64,000 nt of DNA from Apostichopus japonicus (lineage: Eukaryota > Echinodermata > Holothuroidea > Aspidochirotida > Stichopodidae), in contig NC_092576.1 of NCBI RefSeq assembly GCF_037975245.1, positions 26,177,611 to 26,241,610 on the forward strand, given 5' to 3'. Both the position numbers and the translations under genes were made by a program. The notes beneath the pieces were generated by a model. That model worked only from the letters and a program-made list of their open reading frames with translations. It was not told the DNA's origin and did no database searches. Positions 14,677 through 59,570 of this stretch are shown in pieces; the first letter of the stretch is position 1, and every line of letters begins with the position of its first letter.

Positions 14677-16221
14677 TGCTCATCTCGGACGGACAGACAC
14701 ATTAAAGAAGCAGACTTTAAAACTCTGCTCCACTTTTCTCTCCTATGTCCGAAGCATAGTAATTTTTATGCTGAGACGCACTGCAATTGTTCCTTGTTTA
14801 CACATGTCACAAGGTCTCTTAAAGTAAACCAATCAACTTATATCAAACGGCATACGAAAGAAAATAATTTATTCTGTCGTAAGAGCTGAAAATTAATTTG
14901 ATTGGTTAATTCTTCACGTCGGACATGGAGTATGTAAATCTAGGCTTCTAGTTCAGATGTTAACCAAATCACTGACGTTGAGTGCAGTGTACTATATACG
15001 TATTATCATATACACCGCGTACGTACGTACATGCGATAATTCACAATATTTCGACAGCAGAGCTGAGTTCTGACACCATTTTCACCTTATTATTGTCTTT
15101 TGGAAGGATAGAAAACATGCCAGAAATTTCAGAAATGATATTATCAAAGGTATGTCATAATTCTAAGTCATTTTAACGTGAAAACGTTGTAAAAAAGAAC
15201 GTTTTAAAATCGTAGGTAAAATTCGTTTGAATCTGAGTAGTGTAGGCCCGCATATGCCTTTGGCCGATCCAATTCGAAGAGAAGGGAAGTCAACAACCCC
15301 TAGGTCAGTGCCTACAAATTCAATGCAAACGTCGATCCTATCCAGTTAGGCAACGGCCAAAGGCTAGCTAATGTTATAGCCTGTATTACTAATACATGTA
15401 GGCCTATTACAAATTGTATATGCCCTAGGCTACAGGTTAAATGGTTGTGGCCATTGATTCGGATGCCACGTAGGGTTTAGTGTTTGTGACTTTTCCACGA
15501 TAAACAGGGTTGGGGTTAGCAGACAGGGTTAGGGCTAGAGAACATATGTGGTAGGTTTAGGGAACATGGTTAGGGGACAGGGTTCGGTGTAGGAGACGTG
15601 GTTAAGGTGTATTTACCCGGCAGCTGGTCCACCCTATATTGGTATTTACTGATTTTGCAAATTGCATTGCATTGAGTTTTGTGCAGTTTTAGGTGTAACT
15701 ATGTCAATTACATGTCCCATTCTGATTGCTAGACAATTCATCTAGTAACAGATAATTATAGAGTATCAATTTGTGTCACCTTCGTGACGCTATGGTGCGT
15801 TATTTAACACAAGTTGAAGAGGTTGTGGTGTGCAGAAATTAGCATGAATTTTACGATGCACATCAGTCAATGACAGACTCTGCCGAGGTTGAAAGCGTGG
15901 GACATGCAATTGACAAGGTCATAATAATGGTATATTTAGGCAAACAATAGCTGGAAAATCTTACACCCATCCCTTCAGGACCAGATCCCAATCATCCTTG
16001 TCTATATGTGGTTCCAGTTTTCCATTTCAATTATAGGCTGATGACTCAGAAAAATATTCACCCCTCTCCCCACTTATTGCCCTCTCAGGTTTCCAATGTT
16101 GACGCAGCTATTTTTTTAATATCAATGATAATATATCCAGGCTATAACCATCCACTTCTCCAGAACTTCTTATAAAGTGTAAACAAGTATTTTTATTTAC
16201 TCTCTAACCACCAGGTGGAAA
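14677..16221. other. 5' region of the zinc-knuckle transposon
   Basis: A weak candidate exon lies at 15117-15149 (MPEISEMILSK, donor GTATGT). A stretch at 15480-15610 has scattered GGGTTAGGG-like words, too irregular to be telomeric. Nothing else recognised. Confidence 0.4.
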
Positions 16222-19290: not shown

Positions 19291-21013
19291 CTGTGGTGGG
19301 TCATCAGTGCAGTGCGCTCTCTTAATTGGACTGATAGACCTTGGCAGTCTGATAACGGCTCCGAAAAACTGAGTGTGTTGCTGGTCATGCATGGTCATTC
19401 AGTGACTTTTTTAAAATGAGTGATTTTTCATATTTTTGTATTTGCAACAGTTTACCATATATAGTTAATGTACTTTTGCAATGTAGGGTTTTGCAGACAA
19501 AATTTGAGGGTCCAAAATCTTATAAAAGGACTAGGAGTGACATATTCACAGTGTCTTGTTATGTAGAATGGAAAGAACCCTCCACTAGCCATTTGTCTGG
19601 TTTGATGACACGACTTCATTGTTTCGCTCATTTTTGCGAGTTTTAGATATATCTTTGTTTACAGTGTTCACATTACCAGATTTTAAGATTGTTTGACTTT
19701 TGAATAGTGTAACTGTTATGCTTCCATGTAACTGAAAAAGGCTTTCTTACAAATAAAATGACCTAGTCAGGTCTTTGCAAATGAATAAAATGTTTTCATT
19801 CACATTAAAGCACCTTCATTTTGAAGGTAAGGATTGGACACTACGTAATATGCATGGACTGCAGATATGGGTCCCGGGGAGGGACCCATACTTCTTCTGG
19901 TATGGGTATTCATACCATAACATTTTTCCATTTTCTTAAACATATTGGGCCGTTCAAGTGTTAATTATCCAGTTCCTGATATGGGGTAATAGGGAATATT
20001 CTCCAGATTGAGCTACATTAAATTGTGATTTTGGTTCAGATTTTTTTGCAATGTACAACCTTGCTTATAAGGCTAACTCCAATTAGCTTAAATTATTCCT
20101 AATTTGAACTGTTAGTTTCTACTAAAATAAACAATGATTATCAATTCATAAAATATTCCTAATTCCAACTGTTAGTTTCTGCTAAAATAAACAATGATTA
20201 CCAATTCATGTGTGGGTGTCTTGTCCTTATTGCATTCATTTTGCATGCGAATTGCTTTTATCCATATTATTCCAACACCTAATCATAGTTTACAGGGTAC
20301 AGTAGCCTAAACACTGTATATCTAAGCCCTACATAAAGGCCTAGTATAGCCTATATAATCAACAGTAGACCTCGTATTACTCAGCTATAAAGCACAACCT
20401 CTATTTTTTATTAATAGGACAGATTAATGAACAACACAATTACTACGGACATTGTTTTTCAAATATTTTTATAACATCGTCAAAATATTGTTTGCAACGT
20501 AATTCTCGGTGATTTGCGTAAGGTTGAACCTTGAATTGCGCTTTTAAGTAATCATTGCTTATACAATTATGCGCATGTGGATGCCAGGTATCATCATTCG
20601 CGAAATAAACATTTAATTATCTGCAGGCTGGCAAAAGATAGACGTTAGGCCTACTTGAAATTCTACTGAGAACTGAATGTCTGCTACATGAACATACATC
20701 TAATAAATAGTATAAATATTTTGTTTATAAATAAAGATGAGCTCGTTGAAAAAATAATAGGCTACACTCAACTATATTAGGTATTATGCGTTTGTTATTT
20801 AGTAATAATGCAGTATATACATACAGTATAGTCATAGTAGCATGGGGCGACCGAAGTTCGTTGATCTTGAACATACACAGTGCATATTATGTACGTAAAG
20901 GCGGCGTTTAATGTACCACACGAACTTCTGTGCACTCACTATACGTTGCATTGTGCATGCGTTAATTCACCCCCTCTTAGATCAATCGATCAGTCCATCC
21001 GGTATTCTCTCAC
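19291..21013. other. Non-coding part of the zinc-knuckle transposon
   Basis: Holds two short hairpins (19866-19890, 10-bp stem TATGGGTCCC with a 5-nt loop; 19898-19917, 7-bp stem) and a 60-bp tandem duplication at 20095-20209. The last ten bases (21004-21013) are the left MULE target duplication. No coding signal. Confidence 0.55.
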
Positions 21014-21046
21014 GGTTCTCACTCAATCTTTGGGGTTTCGTTGACA
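21014..21046 (+). repeat. MULE left terminal inverted repeat
   Basis: Starts GGTTCTCACTCAATC; its reverse complement is at 42985-43017 with no mismatch. Confidence 0.95.
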
Positions 21047-21072
21047 TAACGTGAAAGGGTGACGTAGCATTG

Positions 21073-21105
21073 CATGTGACGTCATGTACATGGTGACGTC
21101 ACATG
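21073..21105. promoter_or_regulatory. Paired CRE-like sites in the MULE left subterminal region
   Basis: 12-bp arms CATGTGACGTCA and TGACGTCACATG face each other across 9 bp; each holds the CREB/ATF octamer TGACGTCA. A further TGACGTCA lies at 42948-42955 near the other end. A role in element transcription or transposase binding is inference. Confidence 0.5.
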
Positions 21106-21994
21106 CCAAAAGTTCCTAATACGACAATCTATCAAACTTGGGTAGCGCGGGAAATTTTGGGTTTGTCCGGTGTGTATTACACACTACCCCTATATACGTT
21201 CATGATACATTCGAAGTTAAGCTATATTTGGACGGGATAATATCTTGATTCTGAACCAAAATTGACTGGACACAAAATGGTGGAAGTGAACTGCGACAGA
21301 AGTTTTCCTCCTGGTAAAGAATGAAGAAATTTAGGTTAACTTCTTTAGGGTTATGTTCAATATACAGTACTAGAAAAACAGGGCACCAAAGAGCCGAGTA
21401 TTTTATCAATTTGTACACGACATTGTAGCCCGCGGCCCTTACTGAAAACCACTGTAAAGTAGGCTATTTATTGCTAACAAGCTACCAACATATAGGCATA
21501 TAACGATGATTTTGTTACAGAATTGATAGAAAGCAATGATTTCTGTTGAGTAACTTAATCTAACTATTTTAAGTCATGGGGTAGCTATAATTGGGCATAG
21601 CCTATACTTAAACTTTAAAGAATAAAAAACCCTGATCAATTAGACTGGGTACTTATGTTGTCATGGCATGTATGGGCTAGTCTGCTACTTGGCTGCCCAG
21701 CACTGGCATGCACCAATATATTTTTAATACAGAATGAGTAGCATTATGGGAGCAAAATATGTAGATCAGGACATGTATAATTTAAGGTGGAAGAGCACAT
21801 GTAGAGAGGGTTGCATGGATGCAAGGCATTCCAACATAGTCTCCCTCCCCCGTTCGACCAAATTTACACATCCAGATTTTAACTGGCATCATAAAGTACC
21901 AAGGATAAATTCTGCACCCAAACTACCCCACAGGCTACAAGGTTTTAAGATTTTATTCATAACGTAATTTAACCTTATCTTTCATACAATTCAG

Positions 21995-24900
21995 ATGCCC
22001 ATCCCAAAGAATGGCTACCTCCATTTTTTCAAATGAAGACTATGGGCGATGGTTTTGTGAGTGGTGTAGTAAATTCCAAAGATGAGTTACAACAATTACT
22101 GAAGTGTCATAGTCGAGTAACGTTGACATCATATGCAAAATGGTGAGAAAACAATTCAATAATTAAGACATAACACCACTACCGTAAAGGTAAGTTTCTA
22201 ATACCTCTATTGTCAGAGCTGTAAAATTGTGCCCTAACTCACATTCCCATCTAGATTTTTCTACAATGACTAAGAAAATGTGTTTGAAATTTAAGTAAAT
22301 GCCTCACATGATTATTCAATCAATCAATGATTTTGTAGCTGCATGGACAGCAATAACATGCTTCTACAATTGATACTGACATTGATAAATCATGCATTTA
22401 AGCAATCACATATAGCCAAAATGATTTGGTATTTAAGTCACCCTCAAGTATTAAATTGGCATAATAGTTTTCTAAAATATATACCTTTTTTAGATGGACC
22501 TCATAGGCCTACATAATTATGCTATATTATGCACAATAGGGTTGATCTGTACCATAAACCATATGTAGGCACATCTAATTGCCATCCACTGATCTTAATT
22601 ATTAAAAACAAAATCATCATCTATGGCTCTTTAAGATCCCCCCACTGTAACTTTATTAGTCCAACTATATGTACAGCATGCTATCATTGAGAAATGTTTG
22701 TGACTATACAATCGATTTTCTCAGTTAGAAAATGTCATCTGACCTTGACATGTTTCTGCTGCTCCCTCATATACAGGGGTTTTGTTGTACAGACTATTCT
22801 AAGCAAAGCATGGGAACCTAAAATATTATGTTGGTTTGAACTAATACATTGTGGTTTGATGATGATATGTCTGCAGCCAGTGACATTGATTAACTTTTGA
22901 TTGATTATTTGTACATATGGTACATGCTATTTCAAGCTTTATAACTCTTAACTGTTTTCATATCCTATTTATAAATATTCTGGAATTTTTAATAAACTTC
23001 AAACTTGAAACAATTAACCTTTCAAATACAGAAATTAATCTTCTTAGAAATCCAGCATTGGTCCATAATTCACCTCATACATCCATTTATGCCATACTAT
23101 TTACCCTCATTCACTTTCCTTACAGGGCAGATGACAAAAACAGCAAAAGAAAGAAAGCTGCCAGGAACCGAATCCTGTGGAAAATTGAAGATATTGATGA
23201 CAACATACCACTGCAAGTAACAAGCAGGGAAATATTGAACTGCCAATATGGGAAACCACCAAAACCAACGAAAAATCCAACAGTGAAGGTTGGTCTGGAA
23301 ACTGTTACCAATATAATGCAAAGTTATGAAAGTTTTCCCCAAAACTGCAATCTTTGACTTTAAATATCAAACAATGTCAGTATGTTGTTAATTGTTGCTA
23401 TTTATAATAAAAAAAGAAGCCCAAAGTAAAACATGCAAGGACTGTTAAATTATAAGAAGGTAGTTTGTCAACAGTTTCCATTCTTTCATTGGTTCTTGGA
23501 CATTGAGATCGAAGATAAAAGAACCCCCCTAAAAAACAAAAACAAACTTAAGATCAAATGAAAACCAGGTAATATATGGAATATATTGTCTTGCAAGAAA
23601 AGCAAGAATATATGTTTTGACAAAGTAATACAACCAAAATTTGAAATAGGTGGTGGGGTAGAGATAGCACTAACGACGATTTAATTGGCAGCTAAACATA
23701 CAGGTCCTGGCTGTTGCAGTATGCAAACTAAAATATATATGTCAACTATAGCTATCTGAAAATTTAGTAGAATGCACAATTGCATATTAAGGTTAAGGTG
23801 AAACTTATTAGCACCAGAGTTCACAAGGTACAGTGCACATTGTGCATACTGATTGAGACCAGAAAAGAGAAGTCAATCAGCTAGACATTATCACCACATT
23901 GAGATATATAATAGAGCAGGCATAATATTTTACATCCTGCTGATCTGCAAATTTCACTTTCTTAACATCAAATTAAACCAAACAGCTGTTTGTTTCATCA
24001 TACCAATTTTGATCAAATCAAACAAGAGCGACATTTGATTGCCTGCTCTCAGCAAGTAAGTAACAACAACATCATCAAAAAAATAAGTTCTGCAATAAAC
24101 GTTGAGCACCAACATAACCATGCAGTGTGTTTGTTGCCTTACAAATAAAATAAGAGCCAGTTTTGTCAAGTCTCATTTTTTGTCAACTTGCTACCTAACA
24201 AAGCACTCACTCATCTAAAAAGGTAATGTGTTCTGGTGCAGCCTTAGCGAAGGGATTCTTGGGGCAAATATAAGCCATCATTTGTAAGCATTCAAAGCTT
24301 TAATGAAGCCATCATTTTAGGTTTCTGAGCAAATTTATGCTAGCATTAAGGCTGCAGAGCGAATGCATTTTTAAAGCTTCAAAGTGAATACTTATATGCA
24401 AATTTAAGCCATCAAAGCCTTAGCTAATTTAAATTTTTAGGCTCTGGTGCAGCCTTAGCAAAGGCATTCTTGGGGCAAATATAAGCCATCATTTATAAGC
24501 ATTCGAAGCTTTAATGCATTAATGTTTGGTAAGGTAATGTGTTCCATGTGAGGAACATATCATAAGCTCATGTTTATCTGAGGAATTTCCTATCATATAT
24601 CATATGAATTCTTCACCCCTATGTTATGTTTGAAAGTATAAACCGGTATCCCCCCCCCCCCTCCTCCCACCACTTCAATGACTCCTTTTACTATATATGT
24701 TTTATTTCTTTTACTTTCAACAGATCTCAGATCACAATTATGGCCAACCAAGCCGAAAGAGATTCCATGTACAGAAAAGCCGGAAAGTTGGATGTCCATC
24801 TAAAGTCTACATAAGACACATCACAAGGTATGTGATAATGTCATGTTTACAAGGCTTTCACAATTTGACGTGTTGTCTTGAAACAACCTTTGGCCCCCAC

Positions 24901-27900
24901 CAAAATCGATAGGCTTCTCTTACTCAATGTTATACACATTCATACCCAGTATGAAATCTACCCTAGGTTCCAGTATTGAGATATCACGTTTACAAGTTTT
25001 TTAACAATTGACCTCTGATGAATGCAAATGACCTTTGACCTCATCAAAAACAATAGGCCTGTTGCACTCAGTGTGGTTTTTCCAAACACAAATATGAGGT
25101 CTGCCTATGCTTCCCTTCTTGTGATATTTTGTATACAAGGTTTCCACAATTTAACCCATGGTGACATTAAATGACCTTTATCTCTACCAAATACAATAGG
25201 CTTCTTGTACTTAATGTGGTACTTCTACACACCAAATATGAAGTGCTCTGACCTTCCCTTCTTGAGATATCATGTTTACAAGATGGGCTTCCCAAACACA
25301 CACACTCGCGAATACACATACACCATCATAATTGCAAAGGTTACGATTATCATCGAAACCTAAAACAATGGCAGAATGTATGTTGGGGTGCTGCTTTATG
25401 TGAGCAATTTAGTGGGTATTTGTAACTTATTACAAAAATAGAAATTGAGACAAATCCATTAAAATCTTGTCAGCTGGCTCATCAACCACTAGTACAAGGT
25501 CCCTGTCAGGTGGCCTGTTAACTCCAGGTCCCCCATTTCTCGACTATCAACCTCACAGTCTTGCTAAATCAAATAATTATTTTTCAGCTCTTATCTCCAT
25601 TTGATGACCTAATTCTTACTCAGTTGATGAATTCATGACTGTGAGGGTTGCTCGCAGTTAAAAATGAAACACAATGTGTGCTTATTTATAATCAAAACCT
25701 GTTTGTTAAGGCTAGAATGACCCTCCAGAATTTGCATGGCTGGCCTTTCCCTCTTTGAGGCTCTCTTTAGAGAGATTAAGTTAGTGCCTGCTTTATAGTT
25801 GCCTGTTCTCATTAGGTTGGTATGCATGGCGGTCTCTCTTTTCAGACTACTTTGAAATCTCTTCAAAACTCCATGGCTTCAAAATTTGTCTTCCAGATAC
25901 AATGCATTCAAACTGTCAAAAACTGCTGGCCAAAGAGAAAAACAGAAGACAATGGAAAAACTACACCAGTCGATTCGCTCCAAAGAGGCTGATACCAATC
26001 CAGAGCAGATAATCCATGTCAAACTACCATTGCACCAATCCCATAAAAATCACAAAGTGTCCACTGAAAGTGGTTTTTCCAAACCAATTGATGCAGCTGT
26101 AAGGGACAAAATACATGAATATGTCTCATTAGGTATCACATCAGTGCCATTAATTAAGCGAGTTCTTAAAACATTTGTGGAGTCGGAACTATGCCCAGCA
26201 AATCAGGTTAAGCCAACATCAAATGACAGAGCATATTTTCCAAGCTGCCATTCCATCCAAAACCATGTGCATCATGCATTAGTTGCAGGTAGATTTTCTG
26301 GACTGGACCAAGAAAACCTGGAAAATAAAGTTGCTGATTGGAAAGCAAAAGAAAAGTCATCAAACTTCTTCCTTCGGAAATGCACGAGCGAGGAAAGTCA
26401 TGAACAAGCGTCAAAACCTATCAGAGAGGCACAAATTTTAACAGAAAGATGTTTTCCCCTAACTGATGACAACGATTTAGATGATAATAGTGATGAGCCA
26501 TATGTAAGGAAAAACACTTTCCTCTTCATACACCAGACAGTGCAACAGAAGATGCTACTAGAGAGATATGGAGAACTAGTACTGCTTGATGCCACGTACC
26601 GTACAACTAAATATGCCCTCCCCTTATTCTTAATGGTTGTAAGGACAAATGTAGGGTATACACCTGTTGCAACATTTATCTGTGAGAGTGAGACGACTGC
26701 ACATATTGCAGAGGCCCTTTCAATCATCAAGGAGTGGAACCTTCAGTGGAAACCTCAATTTTTTATGATTGACTATTCTGAAACAGAGTATCAGGCCCTT
26801 CAAGATGTGTTTCCAGAGGCTCACAAGTATGTTTGCAGCTTTCACAGAGAGCAAGCTTGGATCCGCTGGTGCAGGGAAGGTGGGTTTCAATCTAACTTTT
26901 ATCATCAAATACAGGCACTAGACTGCAACACAAACCTACTTATCAACTTTCTACTAGTATGTACCCACTCTGTTCTAGAATTGGTCATGTCATAAATGGT
27001 GAGAGCAATACTAGTTGGCTTTATCATTTCCAGCATTGTTTACCACATACTATCAGTATGTAAATAAGACTGTTTTGGGCTATAGGTTAACACTGAAGGA
27101 TTCCACAGCTTTGATAGTTCATTTTCGATTTGAACCAGCTGGCACTTTCACAGAACCTAAGTTAAGTAGAAGGCTACTTCTTTGTTGTTTCCCACACCAA
27201 TTTAACACTAATCATGAAACATTTTTTTTATTCCACAGGAAAAAACCAACTAACCACTGACAACCAACACCATCTCTTGAAAATGCTGAGGGATATTGCA
27301 ACAGCAAAAGAAAAAGAAAAATGTGACAAAGGTATTCACATTTTGCGTTCAAGCAAGTTGTACTCCTCAAACATCAGAGTGAAAACATACACTGAGACTA
27401 GATGGCTTGGCATATGTCAGGTATGTTATTGCTTCATCATAAAATTAATGCAATACTTACAAAATGAGATCCAGCTATTTGCTTTCCTTCTTACTTGTGA
27501 TTTATAGCTCCCAAGAATCATTCACAAAAATAATCATTCCATTTAAGATATTACATAATAACTGTAAGGTTGTATCAATTTTTGCCCAAACTTTTATTCA
27601 CATAACTGGTACATACAAGATATTTGCTATGAATCAACTAATATAAATATAAGAACATTGTCTTTCTAGTTATACTCGTGTCATACATTGACATGCATGT
27701 AGGATGACTAGTTTTAATTAGGACATTGTTACAATAAAACAAAATTTGTGCATTGTCAGTAACTCTATATTCACTATCTAATTTATGTATTCCCTGTTAG
27801 ATAAATTGGATGCCACATAGGTACGGCCTTACAGTAACTATACATTGCGTTAATTACCTTTCCTGATAATTATTCATACAGATAACATGTATGCTCAAGT

Positions 27901-30900
27901 GTTCAGTGTCTTCAAAGGTTCTACTGTAGCTAAGGCTTACAAGTAAATGACTGAAACAGTGTTTGATTGATAATGATTTCAGTTGAACTTTTAATATCTA
28001 ACTACTTTGAAGTTTAAATCAAGCCAGCTCGAATTCAATGCTTGCTAGTTCTGCTACACTTGGTACTACTCGAAACCCCAGTACAATTACAGGAAAGTAC
28101 AGTCCAGTTTTGTGATACTTTTAATAGTCTATCCACTTCATATGAATTTAACTTCTGTGAACTCTGTACTGTAAGTTGCATATGATCTAACAACAAGCAC
28201 TTAGTGGTAAAACTGTCAACAATAGTAACAATGAAATGAGGAGAATTGCAATTTCATGAAAGACACAGTAAATGTTCACATTTCAGAACAGTTTAAGGAT
28301 GACCATTACCCATTTACTTAACAGCGATGGTGCAGAGCATATGCACTGCCTGGCTTCAATGTGTCAGTCACCACAAACAATGGAGTAGAAGCACTTAACA
28401 GAACACTGAAGCAGTTCTACCTAAAGCTGACAACTACAAACACTGTCTCTTCATTGGCTGAAACTCTGGTGTTGGACTTCATACCAGATCAACTGATGTC
28501 CTACACAAGAAAAAACTATGCCTTCAGTAGCCAGTACAAGGCATACAACCCTCAAGTGCCAGCATTTTTGCATGATCGACCCAGAGCCTTTGTTAAGCAC
28601 TGCATGACAAAGATAAGTGCGGCCACTCACTACAAATCAAAGGATGTCCAAAAGGTTGGTGAAAATATTTTTCAGGTGAAAAGTGAAAATTCCTTACAAA
28701 ATACATGGTATGAAGTGTTCCTTGGGGACTCAAAATCGTTCCCCAAATGTCAATGTGCTGCATTTATGGAGAACTTCATGCCATGCAAACATCTCTTTGC
28801 AATATTTGCACACAGTGATGCCACCTGGAACAGCCTGAGTCCACTGTATAAAAACAGTGCATATTTTAACCTGGACTTGAGTTTTCTTTCAAAGGAAGTT
28901 CAGTTCAAATCTTGCCTAAGAGATGATCAAGAAGTTGGTACTGGGAGCCCTGTCCAACAGGAAGATGAGACAGACGTCAGTGGTGAAGAAGCCAGTACCT
29001 GCAATCGGTATATCCATTCTACCCAGAAGTGCCTCAGAGAAAAACTGAAGGTTTTGCAGGATCTCTCTTTTCTCTCCTCTGATGTTGATGTCATGTCAAA
29101 TGTCATCTCCCAACTCACACTGGCATGTGCTGAACTGGAACAGACCATACCGAGAGAAAACCAGTTGCCTCTACACCAGTCGGGCAAGAAATCAGCCCTT
29201 CGTCCACTGCCTCAAAGAAAGAAAAAGATGAAAAAGGCAAAACAGTCAAAGATGACACACAGAACAGGTATAATTGATAACTTTAGAAATAGATATGGTG
29301 TTAGTTTAACCTAAGGTAGCATCACCTGATATGATCATGGACGGCAGACAATTGTTGTAAAAATAAGTTTCTGTCATCATTCACAAACCAGAAAGTCAAT
29401 TGAGTAATTGCTTCCTTGCATATGTGTGATGCAACTTTGGATAAAACTTCTGTTACTCACCAGAAATGTCCAATGTCATACAATGGTTTGACAGTAACTA
29501 TTGATGAGTACCTACACATTGAAGAGGCCGAATTTCAAACCAACTTTCATTTCTTCAGTGCTGAAGTTTACATTTTTCAGATCATTTGCTTTAGAAAGTC
29601 ACCTGACATGACTTTAACCTCCATACCAAGGATGAAGTTGTAGCAACTGTTACTGGTTGAAATAACCTGTTTAAACAGTTTCCTCACTTTGTCTTCAGAA
29701 GACCTCAAGTGATTGTTATTTGCCATGGTAAACAGTAGGAGTCATCGACTTTCCCATCTTGATATATGGTATTTACAATATTTACAGACTATCACCTCAG
29801 TTGACATCAAATTACCTTTGACCTCCCAGAAAAATAGGCATCATCTGCTCACCAAGGGCTAGCTAAATACAAACTTTGATGTTAAAAAGGAGTTTCCCAA
29901 GTTCTTCAGACACTGCATTTACAAAATTTTCAGACTTTGAGCTCAGTTCACCTCAAATGACCTTTGACACCCCTTGAAAACCTATGGAAATGATATTCTC
30001 ATGGATACCTACAAAGCAAATTGAACATCAAGCGACTATCTTCTAGAGATATTGGACATAAGAAGTCTTCAGTCTTTTGCCTCTGTTGACCCTTAAGTGA
30101 CCATGAAAACATGATGCTCACTAAGGGCTACTTATATACCAAGTATGCTTGCATACACACACCATCGCAATCACATAGATACCTTTAGCCCTAGTAATTT
30201 GTAGAAAAGTATAATTGCTTTGAGATTCCTTGGTAATATGAAAGCAGAAATCATTTTCTCACTACTGAATTGTAGAGCAATAATGTTGTGAAGCGCATGG
30301 TCATTAGTTTAGCAATATTAATTGGTTTCTGCCTATTCATGGATTGATAAATACAAAGTCATATTTTGTTACCTTTGCTTGACCCATGTTAAACTTTGAC
30401 CACCATTTGATCCACTACTAGGAATAATTTACACTCACAATCATGACTATGAAGGTTCCGATTTCTAATTGAAACCAATAATTTACCAATATCCCAGCAA
30501 TATTTTTGCTGCTTTGTGTTTAAAATGTGCAATATTTCACCTGTCTTTATATGCAAACATGATCAAGTAGACATAAATGCTATCCTTTATCTACCAACAG
30601 ACCCACCGCCCAAAAAGAGGGTACATTTCGAAGCAACAGGCAGTGGTGACAAATCCAGTGGTGAGAAAATCCTGAAATGATAATTACTTTTTAAGTATCA
30701 AAACAAATACTGTTTTGTGTTTATAATGTGCAACATTTAACCCACCTGTATCTTGAAGCATGATATCTAAAAGACATTAATGCTATCCTTTATCTACCAA
30801 CAGACCCACCGCCCAAAAAGAGGGTACATTTCGAAGCAACAGGCAGTGGTGACAAATCCAGTGGTGAGAAAATCCTGAAATGATAATTACTTTTTAAGTA

Positions 30901-33900
30901 TCAAAACAAATACTGTTTTGTGTTTATAATGTGCAACATTTAACCCACCTGTATCTTGAAGCATGATATCTAAAAGACATAAATGCTATCCTTTATCTAT
31001 CAACAGACCCACCGCCCAAAAAGAGGGTACATTTCTTAGCAACTTGCAGTGGTGACAAATCCAGTGGTGAGAAAATCCTGAAATGATAACTACTTTTTAA
31101 GTATCAAAACAAATACTGTTTTGTGTTCATAATGTGCAACATTTAACCCACCTGTATCTTGAAGCATGATATCTAAAAGACATTAATGCTATCCTTTATC
31201 TACCAACAGACCCACCGCCCAAAAAGAGGGTACATTTCGAAGCAACAGGCAGTGGTGACAAATCCAGTGGTGAGAAAATCCTGAAATGATAACTACTTTT
31301 TAAGTATCAAAACAAATACTGTTTTGTGTTCATAATGTGCAACATTTAACCCACCTGTATCTTGAAGCATGATATCTAAAAGACATAAATGCTATCCTTT
31401 ATCTATCAACAGACCCACCGCCCAAAAAGAGGGTACATTTCTTAGCAACTTGCAGTGGTGACAAATCCAGTGGTGAGAAAATCCTGAAATGAGAACTACT
31501 TTTTAAGTATCAAAACAAATACTGTTTTGTGTTCATAATGTGCAACATTTAACCCACCTGTATCTTGAAGCATGATATCTAAAAGACATTAATGCTATCC
31601 TTTATCTACCAACAGACCCACCGCCCAAAAAGAGGGTACATTTCGAAGCAACAGGCAGTGGTGACAAATCCAGTGGTGAGAAAATCCTGAAATGATAACT
31701 ACTTTTTAAGTATCAAAACAAATACTGTTTTGTGTTCATAATGTGCAACATTTAACCCACCTGTATCTTGAAGCATGATATCTAAAAGACATTAATGCTA
31801 TCCTTTTTCTACCAACAGACCCATCCCTCTCCCCCCCCCCCCCCTAAATTATCATTGTGCTTCAGCTTCACTATGACATATATTTGCAGGAAACTTGTCA
31901 CATCAAGGACTTTTCTCATTTGAAATATAATGGCCTTTGAATGGTAGAAGCTACCATGTTCAACTACTTAATGTGAAGACGACAGTATATACTAAAATAA
32001 AGTATAGCACTGGACATTGCTGCACCATTAACCTACAAATTATGTCAATCCTCAGAGACAGACCAACTCTTACAAGAATTAAAACAATCTGAGACGACCA
32101 ACCTCAAAAGGATTCACAGGGAGCAACGTTACCATGTGTGTGGGGAAGTGTTGGAATACGATGATTTCAAAAGCCTTATCTACCCAAACTGGCTTAATGA
32201 CAAGGTAACACTTTCGTTTTACATTTTAAAAATATGAATAGTTTGCCATCAGCTGATGTTGGAAACCAATCCCATATACACACTCTTCACTACTTTGCTT
32301 TCGGTTATTTCAACAATAGATCAGTACAATTTTGCACATACATCTAATTTTTGCTTGTAGCAGCAAGATGTCCACTTTATTCAACCTATAAATGGTATTA
32401 GCTATAATGGTATTAGCTCCTAATTCAACGCTTATGCCTGCCCGCTTACAGTAGCTCAGGACACAAGTCTTAGCAATAAAGTTTGAGCGTCGAACCCACA
32501 AGAAAAACTATGCCAAGGCCAGCTAGCAGCAAGGTGAACTATCTATGGGATGCCAACATTGTAAATTTTCACTTTATCACAGCAGCTAAAACGAATGTGT
32601 GATTCCATGGTCCAAAATAGTCCAACACTAACAGCTAACAATGTGGCCATATTCAGCTGTCCCATTTTTAACCAAAATGTTGCCCATATTGGCTTGGAAT
32701 GGACTAGCCCATGTGACTGAGGAGCCTAGTAAACAACTTTTGTTCAGAATGATTTGTGTTGTGACAGATACATACTGTACGTGCAAAAAATGGCAACATC
32801 TCTGTCTGGTGAAATAAAGTAATATTCTGGCTCAAGACCCTGATTTATACACTAAGCTATACTGAAAGTGACCCTCAGACAAATCTGAGTTGCTTGACTC
32901 ACTTCAAGAAGTATGTCCAGTTAACCTGAATTGCATCTAATCTTTTATAAAATGAATATATTTGTATTTTGCAGGTAATGAATGCATACCTCTCTGTACT
33001 ACGTTCACAATGTAATACAAGTGATAACAACCACGTCTTCATCATCCCATCGTATCTGGCAGTTTTATGGGATGCTGGGAGATTTAACACATGGATGATG
33101 CGAGAGGTGATTCTTTTTGCATTTCTTTACCCCTTTGCCTGCTTTCCATTTTTCGGACAGTAAGATGTATTCGTTAAATGGATAAGTGCTCTGCTATGTT
33201 ATTCCTTGCAATGCTCTCCTAAAGCAGCGTTTCTCTATAGGTTGCAATGCATGCAAACTATTAAAACACAGTATATTCTTATTATGCATCCTCTCTATGA
33301 AGTTTCCTCTTACAACAATAAACTGGTAAGGCTGGAACCTTATGAGTATATTCCCACCTGCTGAACTGATGTAAGGTACTGTACCTAATAATGCTTTTTG
33401 TCCATTTCTTTCTACCAATTAGATAAATCTGGTCATGTTTAAATGGATCTTCATGCCCATTAACATCACTAACAACCATTGGATTCTCTTGGCGGCCAAT
33501 GTTCCACAGATGTCTGTGTCAATTCTTGACTCAATGGACACTGGAAAGGGTCTATCCTATGTAGGAAAATGGAAGTAAGTATTGAGCTGGTTTTGTAACT
33601 TGTTTTTAGAACGTGTAAATTTCAAACTCAATAAAATTAATCCAAGAGAGCCTGTAGTACTGTTTCCTCCAAACAAAGGCAGCATATTTGAGACTCAAAA
33701 AATGTTAAATATCTGCAATTACAACCTTTCAGGAAGTTCATGCATAATCGCTCAAGGCTAGTTGGAGAGTTTGATGGAGAATGGAAGACTGGACATTTGA
33801 TGTCAGCCCAACAGAAAGATGGGAACTCATGTGGGCCTTTTGTATTAATGGTGAGTATATCCAATAGAGGTTCTACCAATTTACAAACTCATTTAAAGAA

Positions 33901-34466
33901 AGAAAAAAATTCTCCAAATTGTTCTCACACATGAAGCATGAACACAGAAAAAGATGACTGAATGTCCCAGTGAAGTATACAGTACGTCTTTCAGCGTGGT
34001 AATAAAGCAGTTTAAGAATTTTGACAATATTTGAAAATCTGGCATTGTTTGAGCCAATACAGTATACATTAAAGAATTATGGTATATCTTATTGTGATAG
34101 AATTCATCTGTTAACTTTGAAGAGATAAAAAAAAAGAAATATGCTGTATTACCATTGTGCCATATTTCAATGATTTTCTTACAGAATGCTTTAGCTTTGA
34201 CTAGAGACATCCTTTTAGAAAGTCTCACACATGAGCATGTACTGCTGATGAGGACGTATGTCTTCACCATACTTAAGAAGAACGCGGTGAAACCACCAGG
34301 CCAGAGGAAAAAGTGTGACATGCCTGGTTGTCTTCAGCCTGAAATGCCTGCAATGTGGGTAGCATGTGATGTATGTGGAAGATGGTGTCATTTCCTTTGT
34401 GTGGGAATGAAGAAAAAACCCATGCAAGAGTACTTGTGTCCCATATGCATAGCTCAATATAGATAG
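21995..34466 (+). CDS. MULE transposase fused to ULP1-type protease and PHD finger
   Basis: Exons with consistent phases: 21995-22142, 23126-23288, 24724-24827, 25897-26879, 27239-27420, 28325-29267, six 60-nt exons at 30601, 30804, 31007, 31210, 31413 and 31616, then 32056-32204, 32975-33106, 33423-33574, 33733-33850 and 34185-34466 (TAG). They sum to about 1238 codons with no stop. The first exon is missing, since 21995 starts inside a codon; a 5' exon near 21.7 kb is possible. Order: N-terminal DNA-binding-like part (QKSRKVGCPSKVYIRHI), DDE core, SWIM zinc finger, repeated PPPKKRVHF linker, cysteine protease, PHD finger. ULP1 domains are known in some plant MULEs; a SUMO or ubiquitin-like substrate here is inference. 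The unbroken frame suggests recent activity. Confidence 0.82.
24235..24515 (+). repeat. Local direct duplication in a MULE intron
   Basis: About 75 bp beginning CTGGTGCAGCCTTAGC at 24235 recur at 24444 with few changes; the spacer has related AAGCTT-rich words. Confidence 0.7.
24838..25290 (+). repeat. Dispersed ~143-bp repeat, three tandem units
   Basis: Units share TTTACAAGGTTTTCACAATTT, ATGACCTTTGACCTC and AATAGGCTTCTT. The middle unit holds a perfect TGACCTTTGACCT (25029-25041). A related piece lies inverted at 55900-56130 and a diverged one at 29740-30190. Confidence 0.7.
25897..26879 (+). CDS. MULE transposase DDE-core exon
   Basis: Ends with the core of a MULE transposase: first Asp in ELVLLDATYRTTKYALP, second Asp in FFMIDYSETEYQAL, and the C-x2-H signature CSFHREQAW. 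The third acidic residue is in the exon from 28325 (TTNNGVEALNRTLK). Upstream residues RDKIHEYVSLGITSVPLIKR are typical of ZSWIM-like MULE proteins. Donor GGGAAG|GTGGGT joins in phase to the acceptor at 27239. Confidence 0.88.
28325..29267 (+). CDS. Exon with catalytic Glu and SWIM zinc finger
   Basis: Begins RWCRAYALPGFNVSVTTNNGVE, giving the third catalytic residue. A SWIM finger (CxC...CxH) is formed by PKCQCAAFMENFMPCKHLF near 28745-28800. The tail is Ser/Gln-rich and ends in a strongly basic segment (QRKKKMKKAKQSK), a likely nuclear localisation signal. It ends in phase 1, matching the repeated exons. Confidence 0.85.
29740..30190 (+). repeat. Diverged copy of the ~143-bp dispersed repeat
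   Basis: Several units with ACCTTTGAC cores and a CACACACCATCGCAATCACA end, as at 25290-25330. Lies in the intron before the repeated exons. Confidence 0.5.
30541..31836 (+). repeat. 203-bp exon-intron tandem array (six exons plus a remnant)
   Basis: Each unit has a pyrimidine-rich acceptor ACCAACAG or TATCAACAG, a 60-nt exon and donor GTGAGAAA. Exon starts are 30601, 30804, 31007, 31210, 31413 and 31616, exactly 203 bp apart. A seventh acceptor at 31818 leads into a truncated exon and a C run. Exons are phase 1-1, so any number can be included without a frame change. Standard exons encode PPPKKRVHFEATGSG; the third and fifth read RVHFLATCSG, and these alternate as a 406-bp dimer. Confidence 0.93.
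32056..33850 (+). CDS. ULP1/C48-like cysteine protease exons
   Basis: Exons 32056-32204, 32975-33106, 33423-33574 and 33733-33850. Family features in order: PNWLNDKVMNAYLSVL (substrate-cleft start), catalytic His in TNNHWILLAA, Asp in SILDSMD, Gln and Cys in SAQQKDGNSCGPFVLM. All four residues expected for a ULP1/SENP-type peptidase are present. Role for the element is unknown; processing of the fused protein or deconjugation of SUMO-like modifiers are possibilities. Confidence 0.85.
34185..34466 (+). CDS. Terminal PHD-finger exon
   Basis: About 93 residues ending in a C4HC3-like zinc finger: CDMPGC, WVACDVCGRWCHFLC, EYLCPIC. PHD fingers commonly bind histone H3 tails, which could direct integration or expression; this is inference. 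The stop TAG overlaps the duplication of the element inserted next. Confidence 0.85.
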   Translation, partial: NALALTRDILLESLTHEHVLLMRTYVFTILKKNAVKPPGQRKKCDMPGCLQPEMPAMWVACDVCGRWCHFLCVGMKKKPMQEYLCPICIAQYR

Positions 34467-34470
34467 TATG

Positions 34471-35630
34471 GAAGCAGGACACTTCGCCCAACAACCATTT
34501 CGCACAACTGCCATTTCGCCCAACCAGCCTGGTCATTTCGCCCAACCAGCCTGGTCATTTCGCCCAACCAGCCTGGTCATTTCGCCCAACCAGCCTGGTC
34601 ATTTTGCCCAACCAGCCTGGTCATTTCGCCCAACCTTGATTAAATATGATATTTCAAAACGTTCAGGAATTGTAAACTTTACAGGATACGAACCGAATAT
34701 TAAGGAAACTTGAGAATTGATCAGTGTGTTAGGGGTTTAAGGTTTGATAGTAAACGTTCGAATATTAAGGAATATTAAGGAAACTTGAAGTCCTGTACTA
34801 GTTGTATAACTTTAGTAAGGAAACGTTCGGGAATTTTTAACGTTACAGGATACGAACCGAATATTAAGAAATCTTGAGGACGGATCAGTGTTTTAGGGGT
34901 TAGGTTTGATAGGTTTGATGTAGTAAACGTTCGGGAATTGTTAACGTTACGGGATACGAACCGAGTATTAAGGAAACTTGAATCGTGGTTAAATGGATTA
35001 CATATGTGATTACATATGTGGTTACATATGTGGTTACATATGTGGTTACATATGTGGTTACATTGATAAAGTGGTTACATTGATTAAATATAGTAATTCC
35101 ATATTACGGACGGGTTTTATATATATATTTTTTTCAATTTAATAGGGAAACGTTCGGGAATTTTTAGTCAGTAGGATGGATCAGAGTTTTAGGGGTTAGG
35201 TTGGCTAGGTTTTTATGAAGACCGATTCCCCTGTGTTTGTATAATAATATAACTTCCATTGTATGCGTAAACGCCTAAAGTAGTGTAATCCTCCCATTAT
35301 ACCCGAAATAACTGCTCAGACTCCGATCGATATCGAGCGGACCTCACTTTTTATTTACCTATTACGAAGTAACCTAACCCAAAATAAATCAAATTGAACT
35401 AGTGGAATAGAAAAAGTAATATTATTCTGACTGAATATTAGCAAAAATAAGGTTGGGTGAAATGACCAACACGGTTGGGCGAAATGACCATGCTGGTTGG
35501 GCAAAATGACTATGATATGGTTGGGCGAAATTACTATGCTGGTTGGGCGAAATGACCCGGCTGGTTGGGCGAAATGACCAGGCTACAGTAGTTTGGCAAA
35601 ATGGTTGTTGGGCGAAGTGACTAGAAAGCG
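34471..35630. mobile_element. Non-autonomous element with hAT-like 8-bp duplications
   Basis: Flanked by ATAGTATG at 34463-34470 and 35631-35638. Both sides carry inverted arms: left CACTTCGCCCAACAACCATTT (34480 on) then about six 22-bp units of TTTCGCCCAACCAGCCTGGT; right the reverse complement arrangement to 35619. The interior has diverged repeats around AAACGTTCGGGAATT and a 12-bp repeat TGGTTACATATG (34985-35065). No coding frame. Confidence 0.7.
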
Positions 35631-35639
35631 ATAGTATGA

Positions 35640-36039
35640 TACTACCATCAAAGAAAATATGTTCATGTTATGAAAGTGCTCCTCACAGAACTGAACACTA
35701 TTGAATTCCCCACATATAGGACACAAGTACAGATTTTCAGCAGAAAGTTATACTGGAGTTCACACCTCCAGCTGTAGAGCTGGAGGCTTATCACTCTTGT
35801 GTACACAAATTGCATGGCCAGGCAAGACCACTGTTTATTATGCTTGGAAAACTTCAGAGTTGGCTTCTTTGCAGATTGCTTAAATATCACGTTACTGTTT
35901 AAAAGAAAGATCATCTTCTTAGAAAAATAAGACTCATAGGCAGGAATCAGCGACTTTTTTGTGTTTTTTTTTAATAAAATGTTTATCATTAGATGCAAGA
36001 CTGCACAATTTGAATCATGTATCTAGTGGTCTAGTTATT
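35640..36039. other. Unassigned MULE 3' sequence
   Basis: AT-rich spacer between the small inserted element and the satellite; no repeat unit or coding signal seen. Confidence 0.5.
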
Positions 36040-39000
36040 ACCAAGATTTGTCTTGGGCTTCATGTACAGTACTTTAAAAATCTTGTAATAAATGGCCTAC
36101 AGTATTGAATTCATGTCAGACCATCACCTGCATGCTAATGTTGAGGTTTAACTAAAAATGTTGACGAGACCCCAAATATTTGTCTTGGAGCTTCATGTAC
36201 ATGAAAGATCTGGAATTATATTGCCTATTAAATTCATATTTAAGCTCATCACCCTAAAAAAAAATGTATTAAAGGTTGTTGGCTAGACCCCAAATATTTG
36301 TCTTGGGGCTTCATGTACATTAAAGATCTGGATTTATATTGTCAATTAAATTCATATAAGCTCATCACCCATAAAAAAGTGTATTAAAGGTTGTTGACGA
36401 GACCCCAAATATTTGTCTTGGGGCTTCATGTACATGAAAGATCTGAAATTATATTGCCTATTAAATTCATATTTAAGCTTATCACCCATAAAAAAGTGTA
36501 TTAAAGGTTGTTGATGAGACCCCAAATATTTGTCTTGGGGCTTCATGTACATGAAAGATCTGAAATTATATTGCCTATTAAATTCATATTTAAGCTTATC
36601 ACCCATAAAAAAGTGTATTAAAGGTTGTTGACGAGACCCCAAATATTTGTCTTGGGGCTTCATGTACATTAAAGATCTGAAATTATATTGCCTATTAAAT
36701 TCATATAAGACCATTACCCATAGAGAAGTGTATTAAAGGTTGTTGACGAGACCCCAAATATTTGTCTTGGGGCTTCATGGACATTAAAGATCTGGATTTA
36801 TATTGTCAATTAAATTCATATAAGCTCATCACCAATAAAAAAGTGTATTAAAGGTTGTTGACGAGACCCCAAATATTTGTCTTCCAAGGGGCTTCATGTA
36901 CATTAAAGATCTGAAATTATATTGTCAATTAAATTCATATAAGCTCATCACCAATAAAAAAGTGTATTAAAGGTTGTTGACGAGACCCCAAATATTTGTC
37001 TTCCAAGGGGCTTCATGTACATTAAAGATCTGAAATTATATTGCCTATTAAATTCATATTTAAGCTCATCACCCATAGAGAAGTGTATTAAAGGTTGTTG
37101 ACGAGACCCCAAATATTTGTCTTGGGGCTTCATGGACATTAAAGATCTGGAATTATATTGCCTATTAAATTCATATAAGCTCATCACCCTAAAAAACTGT
37201 ATTAAAGGTTGTTGACGAGACCCCAAATATTTGTCTTGGGGCTTCATGTACATGAAAGATCTGAAATTATATTGCCTATTAAATTCATATTTAAGCTTAT
37301 CACCCATAAAAAAGTGTATTAAAGGTTGTTGACGAGACCCCAAATATTTGTCTTGGGGCTTCATGTACATTAAAGATCTGAAATTATATTGCCTATTAAA
37401 TTCATATAAGACCATTACCCATAGAGAAGTGTATTAAAGGTTGTTGACGAGACCCCAAATATTTGTCTTGGGGCTTCATGGACATTAAAGATCTGGATAT
37501 ATATTGTCAATTAAATTCATATAAGCTCATCACCAATAAAAAAGTGTATTAAAGGTTGTTGACGAGACCCCAAATATTTGTCTTCCAAGGGGCTTCATGT
37601 ACATTAAAGATCTGAAATTATATTGTCAATTAAATTCATATAAGCTCATCACCAATAAAAAAGTGTATTAAAGGTTGTTGACGAGACCCCAAATATTTGT
37701 CTTCCAAGGGGCTTCATGTACATGAAAGATCTGAAATTATATTGCCTATTAAATTCATATTTAAGCTTATCACCCATAAAAAAAGTGTATTAAAGGTTGT
37801 TGACGAGACCCCAAATATTTGTCTTGGGGCTTCATGTACATTAAAGATCTGGAATTATATTGCCTATTAAATTCATATAAGCTCATCACCCATAAAAACT
37901 GTATTAAAGGTTGTTGATGAGACCCCAAATATTTGTCTTGGGGCTTCATGTACATGAAAGATCTGAAATTATATTGCCTATTAAATTCATATTTAAGCTT
38001 ATCACCCATAAAAAAGTGTATTAAAGGTTGTTGACGAGACCCCAAATATTTGTCTTGGGGCTTCATGTACATTAAAGATCTGAAATTATATTGCCTATTA
38101 AATTCATATAAGACCATTACCCATAGAGAAGTGTATTAAAGGTTGTTGACGAGACCCCAAATATTTGTCTTGGGGCTTCATGGACATTAAAGATCTGGAT
38201 TTATATTGTCAATTAAATTCATATAAGCTCATCACCAATAAAAAAGTGTATTAAAGGTTGTTGACGAGACCCCAAATATTTGTCTTCCAAGGGGCTTCAT
38301 GTACATTAAAGATCTGAAATTATATTGTCAATTAAATTCATATAAGCTCATCACCAATAAAAAAGTGTATTAAAGGTTGTTGACGAGACCCCAAATATTT
38401 GTCTTCCAAGGGGCTTCATGTACATTAAAGATCTGAAATTATATTGCCTATTAAATTCATATTTAAGCTCATCACCCATAGAGAAGTGTATCAAAGGTTG
38501 TTGACGAGACCCCAAATATTTGTCTTGGGGCTTCATGGACATTAAAGATCTGGAATTATATTGCCTATTAAATTCATATAAGCTCATCACCCTAAAAAAC
38601 TGTATTAAAGGTTGTTGACGAGACCCCAAATATTTGTCTTGGGGCTTCATGTACATGAAAGATCTGAAATTATATTGCCTATTAAATTCATATTTAAGCT
38701 TATCACCCATAAAAAAGTGTATTAAAGGTTGTTGACGAGACCCCAAATATTTGTCTTGGGGCTTCATGTACATTAAAGATCTGAAATTATATTGCCTATT
38801 AAATTCATATAAGACCATTACCCATAGAGAAGTGTATTAAAGGTTGTTGACGAGACCCCAAATATTTGTCTTGGGGCTTCATGGACATTAAAGATCTGGA
38901 TTTATATTGTCAATTAAATTCATATAAGCTCATCACCAATAAAAAAGTGTATTAAAGGTTGTTGACGAGACCCCAAATATTTGTCTTCCAAGGGGCTTCA

Positions 39001-42000
39001 TGTACAGTAAAGATCTGAAATTATATTGTCAATTAAATTCATATAAGCTCATCACCAATAAAAAAGTGTATTAAAGGTTGTTGACGAGACCCCAAATATT
39101 TGTCTTCCAAGGGGCTTCATGTACATTAAAGATCTGAAATTATATTGCCTATTAAATTCATATTTAAGCTCATCACCCATAGAGAAGTGTATTAAAGGTT
39201 GTTGACGAGACCCCAAATATTTGTCTTGGGGCTTCATGGACATTAAAGATCTGGAATTATATTGCCTATTAAATTCATATAAGCTCATCACCCTAAAAAA
39301 CTGTATTAAAGGTTTTTGACGAGACCCCAAATATTTGTCTTGGGGCTTCATGTACATGAAAGATCTGAAATTATATTGCCTATTAAATTCATATTTAAGC
39401 TTATCACCCATAATAAAGTGTATTAAAGGTTGTTGATGAGACCCCAAATATTTGTCTTGGGGCTTCATGTACATGAAAGATCTGAAATTATATTGCCTAT
39501 TAAATTCATATAAGACCATTACCCATAGAGAAGTGTATTAAAGGTTGTTGACGAGACCACAAATATTTGTCTTGGGGCTTCATGTACATGAAAGATCTGA
39601 AATTATATTGCCTATTAAATTCATATTTAAGCTTATCACCCATAAAAAAGTGTATTAAAGGTTGTTGATGAGACCCCAAATATTTGTCTTGGGGCTTCAT
39701 GTACATGAAAGATCTGAAATTATATTGCCTATTAAATTCATATAAGACCATTACCCATAGAGAAGTGTATTAAAGGTTGTTGATGAGACCCCAAATATTT
39801 GTCTTGGGGCTTCATGTACATGAAAGATCTGAAATTATATTGCCTATTAAATTCATATAAGACCATTACCCATAGAGAAGTGTATTAAAGGTTGTTGATG
39901 AGACCCCAAATATTTGATTTGGGGCTTCATGTACATGAAAGATCTGAAATTATATTGCCTATTAAATTCATATTAGACCATTACCCATAGAGAAGTGTAT
40001 AAAAGGTTGTTGACGAAACCACAAATATTTGTCTTGGGGCTTCATGTACATGAAAGATCTGGAATTATATTGCCTACTAAATTCATATAAGCTCATCACC
40101 CTAAAAAAACTGTATGAAAGGTTGTTGACGAGACCCCAAATATTTGTCTTGGGGCTTCATGTACATGACAGATCTGAAATTATATTGCCTATTAAATTCA
40201 TATTTAAGCTTATCACCCATAAAAAAAGTGTATTAAAGGTTGTTGACGAGACCCCAAATATTTGTCTTGGGGCTTCATGTACATTAAAGATCTGGAATTA
40301 TATTGCCTATTAAATTCATATAAGCTCATCACCCATAAAAACTGTATTAAAGGTTGTTGATGAGACCCCAAATATTTGTCTTGGGGCTTTATGTACATGA
40401 AAGATCTGAAATTATATTGCCTATTAAATTCATATTTAAGCTTATCACCCATAAAAAAGTGTATTAAAGGTTGTTGACGAGACCCCAAATATTTGTCTTG
40501 GGGCTTCATGTACATTAAAGATCTGAAATTATATTGCCTATTAAATTCATATAAGACCATTACCCATAGAGAAGTGTATTAAAGGTTGTTGACGAGACCC
40601 CAAATATTTGTCTTGGGGCTTCATGGACATTAAAGATCTGGATTTATATTGTCAATTAAATTCATATAAGCTCATCACCAATAAAAAAGTGTATTAAAGG
40701 TTGTTGACGAGACCCCAAATATTTGTCTTCCAAGGGGCTTCATGTACATTAAAGATCTGAAATTATATTGTCAATTAAATTCATATAAGCTCATCACCAA
40801 TAAAGAAGTGTATTAAAGGTTGTTGACGAGACCCCAAATATTTGTCTTCCAAGGGGCTTCATGTACATTAAAGATCTGAAATTATATTGCCTATTAAATT
40901 CATATAAGCTCATCACCCTAAAAAACTGTATTAAAGGTTGTTGACGAGACCCCAAATATTTGTCTTGGGGCTTCATGTACATGAAAGATCTGAAATTATA
41001 TTGCCTATTAAATTCATATTTAAGCTTATCACCCATAAAAAAGTGTATTAAAGGTTGTTGATGAGACCCCAAATATTTGTCTTGGGGCTTCATGTACATG
41101 AAAGATCTGAAATTATATTGCCTATTAAATTCATATAAGACCATTACCCATAGAGAAGTGTATTAAAGGTTGTTGACGAGACCACAAATATTTGTCTTGG
41201 GGCTTCATGTACATGAAAGATCTGAAATTATATTGCCTATTAAATTCATATTTAAGCTTATCACCCATAAAAAAGTGTATTAAAGGTTGTTGATGAGACC
41301 CCAAATATTTGTCTTGGGGCTTCATGTACATGAAAGATCTGAAATTATATTGCCTATTAAATTCATATAAGACCATTACCCATAGAGAAGTGTATTAAAG
41401 GTTGTTGATGAGACCCCAAATATTTGTCTTGGGGCTTCATGTACATGAAAGATCTGAAATTATATTGCCTATTAAATTCATATTTAAGCTTATCACCCAT
41501 AAAAAAGTGTATTAAAGGTTGTTGACGAGACCCCAAATATTTGTCTTGGGGCTTCATGTACATGAAAGATCTGAAATTATATTGCCTATTAAATTCATAT
41601 AAGCTCATCACCCATAAAAACTGTATTAAAGGTTGTTGATGAGACCCCAAATATTTGTCTTGGGGCTTCATGTACATGAAAGATCTGAAATTATATTGTC
41701 TATTAAATTCATGAATATAAGACCATCAACCATAGAGAAGTGTATTAAAGGTTGTTGACGAGACCCCAAATATTTGTCTTGGGGCTTCATGTACATGAAA
41801 GATCTGGAATTATATTGTCTATTAAATTCATGAATATAAGACCATCAACCATAGAGAAGTGTATTAAAGGTTGTTGACGAGACCCCAAATATTTGTCTTG
41901 GGGCTTCATGTACATTAAAGATCTGGAATTTTAATGCCTATTAAATTCATATAAGCTCATCACCCACAAAAAAAGTGTATTAAAGGTTGTTGGCAAGACC

Positions 42001-42075
42001 CAAAATATTTGTCTTGGGGCTTCATGTACGTTAACAATCTTGAAATGTGTTGTTTTTTTGAATTTATATTTAGCC
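36040..42075 (+). repeat. ~117-bp satellite array with 701-bp higher-order period
   Basis: About 50 monomers sharing GACCCCAAATATTTGTCTTG and TTAAATTCATAT. Variant monomers (ACCATTACCCATAGAG; CTTCCAAGGGGC) recur every 701 bp from 36.7 to 39.5 kb, i.e. six monomers per higher unit; order is less regular from 39.7 to 42 kb. The outer monomers (36040 and 41990 on) are the most diverged. Since 117 is a multiple of three, long minus-strand frames appear; they are not genes. Confidence 0.95.
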
Positions 42076-50218: not shown

Positions 50219-50407
50219 TCGCTTCTCGGCCTTTTGGCTAAGATCATGTGTAGTATCTGTTCCCTTCGGGAATGGTGATACACACCTGACGATGATCACA
50301 CAGTCACAGTCCCGATGCAAGGGGACTGGGGCTGAGAGCGGATCAGTCGTTTGGTAGTTTGGTTTTCGTGCCCAGGTTCTTTCCTGGGTGACTTTTTCTT
50401 AAAAAGT
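50219..50407 (+). mobile_element. U2 snRNA-headed SINE-like element
   Basis: The first 45 nt (counting the shared A at 50218) match U2 snRNA positions 1-45 with a single difference, including GTAGTA of the branch-site recognition region. Then follow an unrelated ~145-nt body with a UUCG-type hairpin (TCCCTTCGGGA) and a 3' hairpin CCCAGG-TTCTTT-CCTGGG. Flanked by perfect 16-bp duplications ATGATTTGACAACAAA (50203-50218 and 50408-50423). A real U2 gene is excluded because the rest of U2 is missing. Confidence 0.9.
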
Positions 50408-57744: not shown

Positions 57745-57904
57745 CTTTTTCTTCAGTGAAGCTGCCATCGGTTTCCCTGATTTGAACATGAGATAGGGGT
57801 TTTCCGGGGAAAGGGGTGGAGGGAGGGAGGGTAATTTCATATTTTATATTTTCCTTTTCATCTTTCTGAAGAACAATTGTTAGAGTGCAGGTGCAGTGCA
57901 GGTG

Positions 57905-59550: not shown

Positions 59551-59570
59551 GAGAGGGCAATGGGGCAAAA

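Follow-up and report, generated by a model that had tools for sequence, protein, structure and literature searches.

Hydra, lancelet and plants have Mutator transposons that encode Ulp1, and the legend of a figure in the same paper describes an alignment of the Ulp1 and PHD domains in Ginger1 and Mutator transposases (PMC2836005). The occurrence of Ulp1 in Mutator transposons is already published, and the gene described here is of this known kind, as it likewise holds a transposase and a Ulp1 protease in one gene. It lies in a 64,000-nucleotide stretch of the genome of the holothuroid Apostichopus japonicus (contig NC_092576.1, positions 26,177,611 to 26,241,610 of the forward strand; this whole stretch is called the window below). 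Between its transposase and protease parts it contains an array of six almost identical 60-nt candidate exons, referred to here as cassettes; the accessible portion of PMC2836005 mentions no exon array at this place, and the two are set apart by description only. Judging from the sequence, it is reasonably likely that the array arose by recent multiplication of a frame-neutral linker exon, within a Ulp1/PHD gene of the Mutator-like element (MULE) type.

Other systems share single properties with this locus. In schistosome micro-exon genes (MEGs), short symmetric exons follow one another in rows, and skipping them leaves the frame intact; these exons are mostly unlike each other and encode secreted proteins, whereas here one exon is repeated almost unchanged within a transposase gene. 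In the kringle IV region of LPA, exon and intron are repeated head-to-tail within a gene and vary in copy number, whereas the exon found here has 60 nt and would encode a linker, not a folded domain. Rehavkus, according to the available part of PMC6446971, combines a PHD finger with a minisatellite near its 3' end, which resembles the PHD finger and the 22-bp repeat arrays located downstream of the exon array. In contrast to Rehavkus, the 22-bp arrays (34512-34635 and 35451-35584) are arranged face to face in a fold-back element of their own and the 14-base core of their unit has no match upstream of the gene, and the likeness is one of description only. The fold-back element itself measures about 1.1 kb (34480-35619), has the facing arrays as its ends and starts 13 bases after the gene's stop codon; its core, GGTTGGGCGAAATG, has 15 matches in the window at up to two mismatches, with 0.34 expected. 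Among the matches listed in literature searches on tandem exon duplication, on Mutator elements with Ulp1 or PHD domains and on exon duplication in transposases, no title or abstract opening describes such an exon array, which does not prove its absence in print.

The head-to-tail array was located by Tandem Repeats Finder at 30569-31823, with a period of 203, 6.2 copies, 97% matches and 0% indels, and the start-to-start spacing of its units is 203 in all five cases. Six full 203-bp units are followed by a truncated seventh, as an earlier note made from the letters alone had proposed for the same place. Each full unit harbors a 60-nt candidate exon at 30601+203k to 30660+203k (Table 1), which is preceded by AG and followed by GT in 6/6 units and through which the phase 1-1 frame is open in 6/6 units. 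The earlier note had ascribed to these exons intact splice sites and phases that fit the exons before and after the array, and both properties were recovered: the preceding exon ends in phase 1 at 29267, the following exon starts in phase 1 at 32056, and the frame is kept with 0, 1 or 6 cassettes between them. As the cassette has 60 nt and is of phase 1-1, any number of copies could be included or skipped without a frameshift, and expansion of the array would therefore be tolerated. The cassette peptide is DPPPKKRVHF[E/L]AT[G/C]SGDKSS. Units 1, 2, 4 and 6 encode DPPPKKRVHFEATGSGDKSS; units 3 and 5 encode DPPPKKRVHFLATCSGDKSS, with L in place of the acidic residue that otherwise follows F. The KKRVHF and PPPKK of this peptide, previously taken to be neighbors, form one overlapping stretch, PPPKKRVHF. 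A long open reading frame (ORF) through 30501-31900 was considered and rejected, the longest stop-free run being 59 codons on the + strand and 36 codons on the − strand, and so was a structured RNA in the unit (fold z 1.04; 168/200 shuffles at least as stable).

The exons of the host gene, joined by splice sites and phase, yield a spliced frame that, with either 0 or 6 cassettes, is open from position 23127 up to its stop codon (34464-34466), resulting in a product of 1,068 aa without cassettes and 1,188 aa with six; no gene start was found upstream of 23126. Among its splice sites are the acceptors of exons E1, E2 and E5, which score 11.87, 9.76 and 6.26, and the donor of E3, which scores 10.51. 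The region of E3 (25898-26956) matches the Pfam profiles PF21056 (ZSWIM1-3 RNaseH-like, 7.3e-18), PF15299 (ALS2CR8, 1.2e-13) and PF10551 (MULE, 5e-13), of which PF10551 and PF21056 exceed their curated cut-offs, indicating a MULE / RNaseH-like transposase, and an ORF over E1 weakly matches the start of ALS2CR8. In E5, a SWIM match stays below threshold (E = 0.093; 12.7 bits, cut-off 19.6), and a SWIM-like Cys/His spacing is seen by eye. Downstream of the array follow Peptidase_C48 (PF02902, 1.2e-18) and a PHD finger match that falls just under its cut-off (PF00628, 9.3e-05; 22.8 bits, cut-off 24), in a region that also matches solved PHD fingers, from 6.7e-05. The best solved relative of the protease part is yeast Ulp1 (1euv, 1.6e-12), to which H, D and C are aligned that we take to be the catalytic triad. 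By these predicted domains the gene is of MULE type, comprising an ALS2CR8-like and ZSWIM/MULE transposase, a SWIM-like finger, a Ulp1 (C48) protease and a PHD finger, and the MULE matches before the array and the Ulp1-type match after it place the array between transposase and protease, as first described. A literature search joining ALS2CR8 with MULE gave no match.

The further claim that the array sits inside a MULE stands as far as the type of the gene is concerned, but the terminal inverted repeats of such an element were not found around it. No inverted repeat of at least 20 nt pairs the upstream with the downstream flank within 20000-36200, and when 19501-23100 was aligned to 34469-36160 in reverse complement, the best local match scored 25, a value reached in 40/50 shuffles. 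This sets the gene apart from the Mutator transposons mentioned above and means that a mobile element and a domesticated gene are not distinguishable here; MULE groups without terminal inverted repeats exist in a table of PMC6446971, as far as that source is available. No relatives were found of the E3 and E5 regions among viral contigs and prokaryote genomes, of the E5 region among phage records, or of a 27-base exon pattern among viral contigs; since these collections are unlikely to contain animal genes, the absence of relatives there says little. A peptide of two cassettes had no match among solved structures.

The cassette is probably a real exon, judging from its sites, frame and composition. 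Candidate AG-GT pairs were defined by site scores above 0 at both ends and a length of 24-400 nt, and among the 293 such pairs in the interval the cassettes have the top combined splice scores (16.98 or 16.76), with a donor of 8.58 and acceptors of 8.18-8.40 in the six full units. The top score is shared by 263-nt pairs of the same sites, which break the frame. Pairs compatible with the frame number 22, and the 60-nt cassettes take the first six ranks among them. When the array was collapsed to one unit, a frame-compatible exon of the cassette's score was found in 4/500 dinucleotide shuffles. The G+C content of the cassette, 0.517, is exon-like and is reached by 70/6,194 overlapping 60-nt intron windows (1.13%). 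A second in-frame donor located 15 nt upstream would produce a 45-nt cassette that retains KKRVHF.

Alternatively, the array could be an unused minisatellite, an intronic tandem repeat with a chance exon-like stretch, in which case 29267 would be spliced directly to 32056. Arguing against this are the rarity of a compatible exon of this score among the shuffles and the exon-like G+C content of the cassette. Skipping would also join the weakest of the 9 donors (29267, 3.69) to the weakest of the 10 acceptors (32056, 3.09) scored in the gene, both of which are outscored by the cassette sites. Several observations nevertheless weigh against use of the cassettes as exons. The frame survives skipping, and the exon part varies no less than the intron part (4/60 and 5/143 positions), as would an unused repeat. 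The window contains further tandem repeats, such as a satellite at 36159-42046 in which a 115-bp unit is present in about 50 copies. The splice-site matrices were entered by hand, and without the frame condition 139/500 shuffles reach the cassette score. Furthermore, similar exon-like scores occur elsewhere in the window: among 55 real blocks of equal length, chosen so as to exclude the satellite, the array and the strand that carries the gene, one reaches the cassette score and the next five come within 0.5 of it. The highest of these control blocks overlaps listed ORFs, so some controls may contain real exons; given the near-equal scores elsewhere, exon status is likely, yet unproven. An unused minisatellite is unlikely on this evidence, while retaining appreciable weight.

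The units very probably arose by recent tandem duplication, which would have lengthened a flexible linker. Nine columns in all vary among the six units, and the pairwise differences follow a pattern: units 4 and 6 do not differ, units 3 and 5 differ once, units 2 and 4 twice and units 1 and 3 seven times. The near-identity of the pairs 4/6 and 3/5, together with the lesser likeness of 1/3 and 2/4, indicates a recent duplication of a 406-bp dimer. The changes in the exon form one 10-bp cluster directly after the motif, consisting of E to L (two changes), G to C and one silent change, so that 3/4 are non-synonymous, and a template for this clustered change of units 3 and 5 was found nowhere else in the window at up to two mismatches. 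At the left edge of the array lies a diverged direct repeat of the unit's intron, with a score of 65 that was reached in 0/200 shuffles (largest 54), indicating that diverged direct repeats predate the last expansion. The dimer pattern and the left-edge repeat together suggest that unequal exchange was involved in the origin of the array. Two observations count against this account: no repeat of the unit was found in the right flank (score 21; 173/200 shuffles as high), and the alternating order of the units is lost at the truncated seventh. A search to the left of the array for an older, decayed exon detected none (score 31; 138/200 shuffles as high).

In the proposed explanation, the linker that connects the transposase and protease parts of a MULE-type gene would at first have contained one short phase 1-1 exon. 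The diverged direct repeats in the flanking intron would have given rise to unequal exchange and thereby to a duplication of this exon, and the 406-bp dimer would then have been multiplied to give six copies. Each cassette would add or remove 20 aa of a basic, probably disordered linker, and the RVxF-like motif in KRVHF would have been carried along with the exon. The truncated seventh unit consists of an acceptor before 31819, 5 nt of exon and a C-rich stretch with a 14-C run at 31831-31844. Its acceptor scores 10.19, the best of the array compared with 8.18-8.40 in the six full units, and its use would end the frame after nine codons, at an in-frame stop within the C-rich stretch, yielding a transposase without protease and PHD finger. 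That it serves as such a splicing switch is hardly to be expected, as a lone acceptor without a donor is the remnant that truncation of a unit would leave.

Each cassette encodes KKRVHF, in which the earlier note had recognized a docking motif for protein phosphatase 1 (PP1). The pattern match itself was confirmed: KRVHF agrees with each of the three RVxF consensuses that the accessible part of PMC3792071 gives (the loose and strict forms by script, the third by eye), with basic residues before it and E after it in 4/6 units. In random 20-mers of the gene's composition the strict pattern occurs in 0.25% and the loose pattern in 2.6%, and the remaining 1,068 aa of the protein contain the strict form never and the loose form twice. 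In the window's ORFs of at least 100 aa (12,921 aa), there are 24 occurrences of the loose form and 3 of the strict form. It could thus be argued that each cassette binds PP1, and that copy number or splicing sets the amount of PP1 brought to the transposase-protease. The motif was, however, picked out in hindsight from the many short motifs that could have been noticed, and as the units are recent copies of each other, the six motifs are a single motif copied and not six independent observations. The exon changes lie in one cluster and the exon varies like the intron, so there is no sign of selection keeping the motif, and such selection cannot be shown; recent duplication explains the repetition that had been read as a docking array. 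The match is better than most chance matches, and with its non-independent copies and its choice after the fact it is a weak indication of docking. PPPKKR, which comes after a preceding RKKKMKKAK, is equally compatible with a basic linker or with nuclear localisation. Among the matches listed in a literature search pairing RVxF with transposase, none is on a transposon protein by title or abstract opening, and among those for RVHF with PP1 none is on a protein phosphatase by title. An array of PP1 docking sites is accordingly improbable, and it is still less probable that a transposase-derived protein is tuned by cassette number, a reading in which unequal exchange at the DNA level and the skipping of exons at the RNA level would jointly set 0 to 6 PP1 sites and which we regard as very doubtful.

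Table 1. Coordinates of the cassette array, its left-edge repeat and the exons of the host gene (positions in the window).
Feature	Position	Strand	Description
Exon E1	23126..23288	+	First recognisable exon, frame from 23127; ALS2CR8 profile positions 3-41, weak (0.0034, below curated cut-off)
Exon E2	24724..24827	+	Phase 0 to 2
Exon E3	25897..26879	+	ALS2CR8 C-terminal part, ZSWIM1-3 RNaseH-like / MULE transposase domain
Exon E4	27239..27420	+	Phase 1 to 0
Exon E5	28325..29267	+	Transposase end, SWIM-like zinc finger, basic stretch at the C-terminus; phase 1 at the exon end
Left-edge repeat	30467..30563	+	Diverged direct copy of the intron part of the unit; 65 of 97 alignment columns match, 7 are gaps
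Cassette exon A1	30601..30660	+	Candidate, 60 nt, phase 1-1, DPPPKKRVHFEATGSGDKSS
Cassette exon A2	30804..30863	+	Same as A1
Cassette exon A3	31007..31066	+	L/C variant, DPPPKKRVHFLATCSGDKSS
Cassette exon A4	31210..31269	+	Same as A1
Cassette exon A5	31413..31472	+	L/C variant
Cassette exon A6	31616..31675	+	Same as A1
Truncated seventh unit	31819..31847	+	Acceptor present, followed by 5 nt of the exon and a C-rich stretch with in-frame stop (DPSLSPPPP*)
Exon E7	32056..32204	+	Phase 1 start; Ulp1 part begins
Exon E8	32975..33106	+	Ulp1 protease
Exon E9	33423..33574	+	Ulp1 protease; His and Asp of the putative triad aligned
Exon E10	33733..33850	+	Ulp1 protease; Cys of the putative triad aligned
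Exon E11	34185..34466	+	Ulp1 part end, PHD finger, stop codon 34464-34466

Elsewhere in the window, a different transposase-like ORF at 56689-57744 has a sub-threshold MULE match (1.6e-04). A LINE-type element on the − strand occupies 10653-14102, 57880-59607 and 59571-61055; it includes an ORF with endonuclease and reverse transcriptase (RVT_1, 3.5e-30), a second stretch with 97.8% likeness across 1,796 bases, and a further ORF that encodes CCHC knuckles. An ORF at 17938-19194 shows a weak, sub-threshold match to a RAG1 recombinase profile (0.022), and a nearby ORF at 16183-16896 has a weak Tudor-knot match (0.0098). A U2 snRNA match at 50218-50301 scores 53.3 bits with a gathering score of 46 and covers 84 bases of the 192-position model, which suggests a shortened copy.

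Should the cassettes neither be spliced in nor bind PP1, the array would be a young intronic repeat. If they are spliced in, a transposase gene would here have multiplied one of its small symmetric exons, a compact example on which the evolution of linker length and of splice-site competition among near-identical exons could be studied. If the motif binds PP1, a protein of the mobile-element type would recruit a host phosphatase several times over.

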